Below are positions 15,558 to 17,193 of a DNA stretch of 64,000 bases, in pieces. The stretch is from assembly GCF_001690195.1 (NCBI RefSeq), contig NZ_LZGM01000078.1, positions 62,001-126,000 on the forward strand, read 5' to 3'. The notes beneath the pieces were generated by a model, which was not told the DNA's origin, did no database searches, and was given only the letters and a program-made list of their open reading frames with translations. Numbering within the stretch: position 1 is the stretch's first letter; the number at the start of each line of letters is the position of its first letter. The translations under genes and the position numbers were made by a program. The stretch is from Gilliamella sp. wkB108. GTDB lineage: Bacteria > Pseudomonadota > Gammaproteobacteria > Enterobacterales > Orbaceae.

Positions 15558-17193
15558 TTAATTACTTTTACAGCTAATATAATGACCACCGTCCCATGGA
15601 TTAACAAAGACCATTCCATTACCTCCGTCGACATGATAATGATATGTATTTGCATCATAGTTAGTCCAGTAACCAACATAAGACCTCCAGTCTATATTGT
15701 TCGGATCGTCATAATGTCCATCTTTTATTATTCCTTGATCATTATAAATGCCCATACTTCCCCATTCAGTAAATAACCCTGCTCCAATATGTCGTCGATA
15801 GAAGTTATCGGTTGATGCTGATGCTTGATCAGGAAAAGTAGGAATTGGTGGTGGAGAAGGGATTTGCTTATTATCCGTAGCATCTTTAGATGTTCCTTGT
15901 GCATTTGTTAAATCTTTGACATCTGGTACATAATAGCCGGTGTGTGTACACCAATTTCTTTGAGTACCAACGATAGCCCAACGATATCTATGAATAAACC
16001 ATTGCTTTAGGCTAAATCCGTATTTAATAACTGTATTATTCTTACTATCTTTACCTTCTAACTCAAAAACGGCTGGTAATGACGGTTTGGCAACAGGACT
16101 TGGATTGTTGGAGTCACTTTGACTTACCGATGCATACGGACCATCTAAAGTAATTCTTACACTATTATTAGTAATATTAGAAACTTTTGCGGTTATACCT
16201 CCTACACTTACATTTGACCATGTTAACGGTGTATTTGTAATAAAAGATATATCAAAAAAGAGCCGGTTAGATCCAGTTGTTGGGAAGTTTTTATTATACG
16301 AACTTGGTTCTGTTGATTGTACTAAAAACCCTCTATCAGGATCCCACATTGATGATGCGCCTAATCCAAGCCACGCATTGGTGTTATCATTTAGGTTGGG
16401 CTTAAGATAACAAATCTGATTAGTAACAGGTAATAGATACTCTTTACTAGGCTGAATTAATGTTTCTGTTGTTGATATATTATATTCTTTCGAATTTGGG
16501 ACACCATACTGAGTTGTTAAAGTTAAATCACCACTAATTTTAAGTTTGTAAGGGCTAGGATGGTTATTGGCTATATCACAAAAAGTTTTTGTTTTATCAC
16601 TTATTTTATTACCAAGATTATCGTAAAAATCGGTACTAAGTTGAGTTTTTACGGATAATTTGAAGTTATTATCACCATCATCGTCTTTAGTTTGTGATAC
16701 AGCCGGTGTTTTAAGGAGTCCAGTTATCATTGAAGGTGAAATAGTCATCGGGTTAACATGTAACGTACTGATGTTATCATCATAATAATCAACACCATCA
16801 AATTTAAATCCAAGCAAACTCAATGATTGTTTTTTTATCTCATCAGTTAAATTTTTGTCCAAATAAGGTGCATTTCCATGTATTATTTCTACTGTTTTAG
16901 CTGATAAAGCAGCATTAGTTATACAAGGGAAAAATAGTGATATTACTATTAACTTTCTAACTATTTGACGTTTTAAAGTTAATTTTTTGAATTGGCCAAT
17001 TTTTTGAAATGAAAAAAATAAGTTAAGTTTCTTGAAGAAATTTGGTTTACATGTTATAATAGCTTGCTTGCTTGCTTGCTTGCTTGCTTGCTTGCTTGCT
17101 TGCTTGCTTGCTTGCTTGCTTGCTTGCTTGCTTGCTTGCTTGCTTGCTTGCTGTGATAGTTTTGTCAGAAGTGAAATTGTTCACGTGTTTCAT
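15558..17193 (-). CDS. Phase-variable secreted protein, paralog B; out of frame (OFF) as sequenced
   Basis: The open frame from 15558 runs back without a stop through a signal peptide (KRQIVRKLIVISLFFPCITNA, split here as about 16 plus residues before the Ala-Ala cleavage area) and the whole GCTT tract. Between the tract and residue TTG at 16862 it holds no ATG, GTG or TTG. The only credible start is ATG at 17193, with AGGA at 17203-17206 upstream. With 22 full repeat units that ATG reads into a TAA at 17047-17049 after 48 codons. Losing one unit (21) or gaining two (24) would join it to the main frame, giving about 543 residues with a (SKQA)n segment before the signal peptide. Landmarks GNAP, DDDGD, QICYLKPN, FPTTGS, GLFTEWGS and a terminal CKSN match paralog A. 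Function unknown; probably exported. Confidence 0.8.
17062..17152. repeat. Tetranucleotide tract (GCTT)22 plus partial unit
   Basis: There are 22 perfect GCTT units (17062-17149) followed by GCT. On the minus strand it reads as AAGC repeats inside the 5' coding part of paralog B. A perfect tract this long is a typical slipped-strand mispairing site, and its unit length is not a multiple of three. Confidence 0.97.

Follow-up and report, generated by a model that had tools for sequence, protein, structure and literature searches.

Within the window, i.e., the whole 64,000-nt stretch of Gilliamella DNA that was analysed, the gene under study lies on the minus strand between rpmH (17618-17758) and an ORF at 14425-15453, which we take to be epmB from its position and a Radical_SAM match. 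In the direction of transcription, a Shine-Dalgarno-like AGGA (17206-17203) and an ATG start codon (17193-17191), which together span 17191-17206 and were read from the sequence, are followed by a perfect tandem tract of AAGC (GCTT on the plus strand) at 17062-17152 that measures 91 nt or 22.75 units, that is, 22 full units and three bases. This non-triplet tract sits between the start codon and the body of the reading frame. ORF reading places behind it, in one large frame, an N-terminal extension from the tract to a hydrophobic core (16953-17061), the core itself together with a probable signal-peptidase site (LIVISLFFPCITNA / ALSA; 16911-16952, by eye and hydropathy), a predicted mature exported protein of about 450 residues (15561-16910, from the ORF and models) and the stop codon of the frame (15558-15560), all on the minus strand.

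The large frame comprises 540 codons and is uninterrupted across the signal peptide and the tract, and the frame of the ATG at 17193 is in a different register. The initial annotation had named this ATG, with AGGA upstream, as the only credible start and had placed the perfect GCTT/AAGC tract between it and the signal peptide; both statements were confirmed by our own reading of the sequence, as was the claim that at the present register the ATG reads into a TAA past the tract (17049-17047) after 48 codons. It was also right that no ATG, GTG or TTG of the large frame follows the tract before TTG 16862, which is the earliest such codon in the entire frame; ahead of the tract the frame does contain ATT and CTG codons, though without a Shine-Dalgarno sequence at a normal distance. 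Coordinate arithmetic agrees with the prediction that one unit fewer or two more would restore a protein of about 543 residues, and the hydropathy and appearance of the N-terminus are of the exported type, as proposed. Judged from these frames, the window gene would be OFF at its present tract length.

The length of the AAGC tract is far beyond chance. With the tract excluded, period-4 runs in the window reach no more than 11 nt, and in 30 simulated 64-kb sequences (first-order Markov) they reached at most 15 nt vs the 91 nt of the tract. At the thresholds used, one A9 was the only other perfect simple repeat in the window, and TRF reported four more repeats there, all imperfect and with periods of 14-29. 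An imperfect tandem repeat with a 27-nt unit in 2.4 copies is found at 26900-26965. A search of the whole genome for six AAGC units returned 17 matches, all of them inside the window tract.

Among the genomes read at this locus, only the home genome has the gene at this position. We matched epmB in 33 of the 35 same-genus genomes and took 30 of these as loci, the window's own included; in none of the 29 others was a family gene present at the epmB-rpmH site within 1500 nt past the epmB match, and in all 29 the start of rpmH lies 151-381 nt beyond that match. As the gene is absent from the site in all 29, tract numbers are not comparable at the same locus. Elsewhere in the window, an ORF at 21882-22655 has a weak match to a transposase zinc ribbon (Zn_ribbon_IS1595, E 2.1e-4, below the curated cut-off).

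Sequence comparison indicates that the window gene is one member of a large paralogous family, many of whose genes carry tracts. Matches to the window protein, in counts that take in fragments, were found in 34 of the 35 same-genus genomes (the home genome among them); the home genome has 15 at E <= 0.001 or 17 at E <= 0.01, and the maximum is 57, in genome G022; the identity of aligned members to the window protein is 24-41%. Beyond the genus, a profile search matched 9 of 148 Enterobacterales genomes, namely six Gilliamella (again including the home genome), two from other genera of the same bacterial family and a ninth with short matches mainly to the C-terminal domain. A scan of named genomes that used two narrow peptide patterns kept 75 loci from 245 relatives, all in Gilliamella. 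The window protein had no match in NCBIfam or among PDB sequences, tblastn gave none against plasmids, and Pfam (E up to 10) returned a single match at chance level. Among complete ORFs of the family that lack a tract, 54 of 58 have an in-frame ATG upstream of the hydrophobic core. Two similar small ORFs of 152 and 176 codons with the pattern FxEGxFxQLxGVSLYLA (L112:1319-1777 and L112:3884-4414, minus strand) sit between family genes of the home-genome C84 cluster.

Long tracts in the home genome, which we sought for the two tetranucleotides AAGC and GCCA, comprise one (AAGC)>=6 and eight (GCCA)>=5 tracts, and all nine precede family genes, each between the start and the signal peptide. The GCCA tracts have 13 to 27 units; 100 of the 112 GCCA matches were listed and resolve into seven tracts, the other 12 being the number expected of the eighth, which is known from direct reading of its family member. 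Six of the 14 home-genome members read in one set are tract-free. Two of the nine tract genes are in frame with their start codon (ON), as free-running tetranucleotides would give; one of the nine is truncated by a contig end. GCCA copies whose 300-nt downstream flanks are 94-98% identical carry 15.8, 17.8 and 21.8 units in one group and 16, 20 and 27 in another. These unequal numbers in near-identical copies are our strongest evidence for tract instability, and they come from GCCA paralogues, the AAGC tract having no near-identical copy. Short-read assembly is prone to errors in long tracts, and the home genome is a draft in 129 contigs; the repeat might accordingly be misassembled, with a true unit number in frame and a gene that is ordinarily ON. 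We regard this as most unlikely: with any other count the gene would still have, near its start, a long tract of non-triplet units, and sister-species tracts of 17-31 nt, which short reads can span, include both ON and OFF genes.

In the sister species the tracts are mainly heptamers of many different unit sequences (AAGACAC, AACAGGC, AAACACC, AACACCC, AACACAC and others), each tract being perfect internally by design of the search. Further examples are (ATCGGGC)9.6 and 11.6, (GACAACA)14.6 and 12.7 and (AAGCACC)12.3, alongside (AACAAGGA)4 and (GCCA)13; tracts with the units ACATTTTTA, AATC, AAAAT, AATT and TAAATA were excluded as false or as lying in non-coding parts. Across the paralogues, the units at the equivalent place are 4-, 7- or 8-mers, and a unit length divisible by three occurs in just one of the 114 tract members left after deduplication (a 9-mer in 2.3 copies, G012). 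Repeats of other kinds were seen in a few members. L174 has a 9-mer in 5.6 copies about 98 nt into the open frame, which lengthens the extension and leaves the frame unchanged, and L093 has a 12-mer in 2.9 copies in the extension, again adding length without a change of frame. The TAAATA hexamer tracts of L042 (4.5 units) and L043 (3.8 units) lie upstream of the ATG and could affect spacing or transcription rather than frame.

Few of the heptamer genes are ON. Among 102 heptamer members, one of which is a doubtful A-rich 7-mer of G025 that is OFF, five read in frame from the ATG and the other 97 are OFF; another 26 heptamer entries outside the 102, some of which overlap other sets, include one that is ON via the upstream ATG (L214) and two via an ATG at the tract edge. 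Per genome, the ON genes among tract members number 1 of 36 in G023, 1 of 19 in G026, 1 of 14 in G032, 1 of 6 in G006 and none of 14 in G030, where a further seven ORFs, possibly overlapping the 14, also include none. Exactly one ON gene is thus true of G006, G023, G026 and G032, and not of G030, G022 or the home genome; G006 was read for 10 of its 16 matches, and G030, G020, G014, G017 and the remainder were likewise read in part. A binomial test on such counts is indicative at most, since paralogues are not independent. The heptamer tracts are short, 87 of the 102 members being OFF with three full units. The ON genes of G006, G023, G032 and G027 have 4.4 units and the OFF genes of G006, G023 and G032 have 2.3-3.7, with the ON genes of G006 and G023 standing one unit above OFF siblings with similar flanks. 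The ON gene of G026 has 3.1 perfect units, so a simple gain of a unit does not account for it. The excess of OFF genes over what free slippage would give may reflect rare switching or selection that holds the genes OFF. In G022 (L269-L300), the conserved ATG is in frame in two of 30 tract members, an extra in-frame ATG occurs at the tract edge in 11 of the 30, and L285, L296 and L300, which were scored as off, have an in-frame ATG within the unit or at its junction; in this genome the tract itself may supply start codons.

Among deduplicated OFF members, 105 of 106 keep the body frame free of stops all the way from the hydrophobic core to the tract, over a mean of 54 codons, by a test that detects tracts at most 150 nt before the frame opens, and the sole exception is the doubtful A-rich 7-mer of G025; the other two frames are open across the same stretch in none and in six of the 105. 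Stops number zero in 4692 codons of the body frame vs 380 and 321 in the other two, a difference that arises partly by construction because the ORFs were defined from stop to stop. For OFF members of five other genomes, dN/dS is 0.49-0.70 in the segment from tract to core and 0.29-0.67 in the mature part. The extension from tract to core is unusually long, at 11 to 112 codons. A decaying gene, with a permanent frameshift and a tract that expanded neutrally, would fit a window gene that is out of frame, without a relative at its locus and known from a single sequence. That account is very unlikely, however, given that the 540 codons are intact apart from the frame, that the mature part of OFF members elsewhere has the low dN/dS just given, and that tracts with many different units recur at one place.

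A less likely reading has translation begin after the tract. An in-frame ATG, GTG or TTG between tract and core is present in 27 of 106 OFF members and absent in 79; where it is absent, translation should start from before the tract at least sometimes, as switching predicts, while rarer start codons after the tract are possible. A TTGACA-N17/18-TATAAT pair, each hexamer matching at 5/6 or better, lies across the start codon in 62 of the 67 distinct contexts with a heptamer tract (L066-L105 and others) vs six of the 47 without a tract, the latter taken from outside the home genome. The TATAAT hexamer falls on Tyr-Asn codons, and much of the sharing of the motif may stem from common descent; a promoter might also fire into the tract. 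Both the 27 members and the motif would suit an arrangement in which a promoter overlaps the ATG, translation starts past the tract and the repeat is not a frame switch. We consider this improbable, because the 79 members without such a codon nevertheless keep the segment open with dN/dS below 1, because 63 of the 67 contexts with a tract pass a loose Shine-Dalgarno criterion (vs 27 of the 47 without one, for which the first in-frame ATG was taken), and because the motif was not seen by eye in the start contexts printed for the window gene and for the home-genome GCCA members.

AlphaFold modelled the window protein with a pLDDT of 75.9, the N-terminal part being poor, and a family member of G. 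apis with a pLDDT of 91.1. A Foldseek search of the PDB returned nothing at E <= 0.001, and a second look in VIA did find matches: the window model aligns with invasin (1cwv) at Z 16.7 and rmsd 2.8 over 184 residues and with intimin (1f00) at Z 14.2 and rmsd 3.0 over 176 residues, and the G. apis model aligns with invasin at Z 17.1 and rmsd 2.7 over 186 residues, with intimin 1f00 at Z 14.0 and with InvE at only Z 6.4. In both models it is the C-terminal half that aligns, with invasin residues 794-985. Model residues 176-464 (15561-16427, minus strand) are accordingly predicted to form an Ig-like domain followed by a C-type-lectin-like domain, as in the tip of invasin (D4-D5) and intimin. Pfam Intimin_C matched seven of 69 members, at a best E of 7.8e-4. 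The most variable part of the family corresponds to model residues 427-464 (15561-15674, minus strand), the C-terminal strands of the lectin-like tip, where the last 38 residues have a mean column entropy of 2.5 bits vs 1.07-1.77 in the other mature segments compared. An inverse autotransporter (type Ve) was rejected, since such a protein has an N-terminal beta-barrel that anchors it and exports its passenger: the Pfam matches of the window protein (E up to 10) and of the 69 members (E up to 0.1) include no barrel family and no Opa family, and only about 160 mature residues precede the tip domains. The product would most likely be an adhesin or lectin, either secreted or loosely bound, and the fold together with the variable tip suggests that it may bind a receptor or glycan.

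The initial annotation had read the locus as phase-variable. Support for this comes from the near-identical GCCA paralogues with unequal unit numbers, some of them in frame, from the non-triplet tracts at the equivalent place in sister species with few genes ON, and from the body frame kept open from tract to signal peptide in OFF members with dN/dS below 1. Very probably, then, the window gene encodes an exported Ig-like/C-type-lectin-like protein and is a contingency locus, presently OFF, within a phase-variable adhesin repertoire. Against this count the shortness and mostly OFF state of the heptamer tracts, the 27 OFF members with an in-frame ATG, GTG or TTG past the tract, the additional ATGs of G022 and the triplet-multiple repeats of L174, L093 and G012. 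Slipped-strand gain or loss of 4-nt AAGC units would bring the ATG into or out of frame, and with a repertoire of paralogues, many with a tract of their own, cells of one population could show different lectin-tipped proteins. The product would be exported to the surface and there presumably act in binding, with a possible benefit in access to host glycans or in escape from phages or immunity. We more tentatively suggest that the repertoire is largely silent, with a default-OFF tract length from which slippage raises about one heptamer gene at a time and with promoter-like motif, start and tract overlapping; it would then serve antigen or ligand variation in a symbiont that benefits its insect host. 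This more specific proposal is possible, though less likely than not.

It is mainly from mucosal pathogens that large sets of phase-variable adhesins are known. If our reading is true, a bee mutualist has one too, which in some species runs to tens of genes and whose proteins have a lectin-like tip that varies. This would point to host specificity, strain coexistence, or pressure from phages and immunity as forces that act on fast-switching surface proteins in the bee gut. Because Gilliamella strains are in culture, the reading is testable.

Among known systems, the closest in logic are the opa paralogues of Neisseria with their CTTCT tracts. Opa proteins are outer-membrane barrels, and AutA of Neisseria is an autotransporter. 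PMC5320596 gives 11 opa genes per strain and 12 paralogues in all, and 11 is also the number in PMC11868660; frame switching via AAGC and GCCA tracts in Neisseria is documented in these papers, and in PMC5320596 AAGC is named as a phase-variable repeat of autA. The likeness of autA to the window gene lies in the repeat unit. With opa, the Gilliamella genes would share a multigene family of (presumed) surface proteins, a non-triplet tract for each gene and switching by frame, and several tract genes per genome with some ON and some OFF, G030 having none of 14 ON. Unlike opa, with its single pentamer unit, the Gilliamella tracts have 4-, 7- or 8-mer units that differ between paralogues, the proteins are by model Ig-like with a lectin tip in their C-terminal half, many members are tract-free, up to 36 tract genes were read in one genome (G023) and the host bacterium is a bee symbiont. 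The models liken the C-terminal half to the Ig-like and C-type-lectin-like tip of invasin, intimin and InvE; in contrast to invasin and intimin, the approximately 450 mature residues leave no room for a barrel and an Ig rod, the identity to invasin and to a 282-residue intimin fragment is 16-19%, and the genes belong to a large paralogous set with tracts. We found no literature in open-licence PMC on this lectin-tip family together with phase-variable tracts in Gilliamella. Frame switching by tracts is already known from Neisseria and the lectin-like tip from invasin and intimin, and it is for their combination in Gilliamella that this search gave no precedent.
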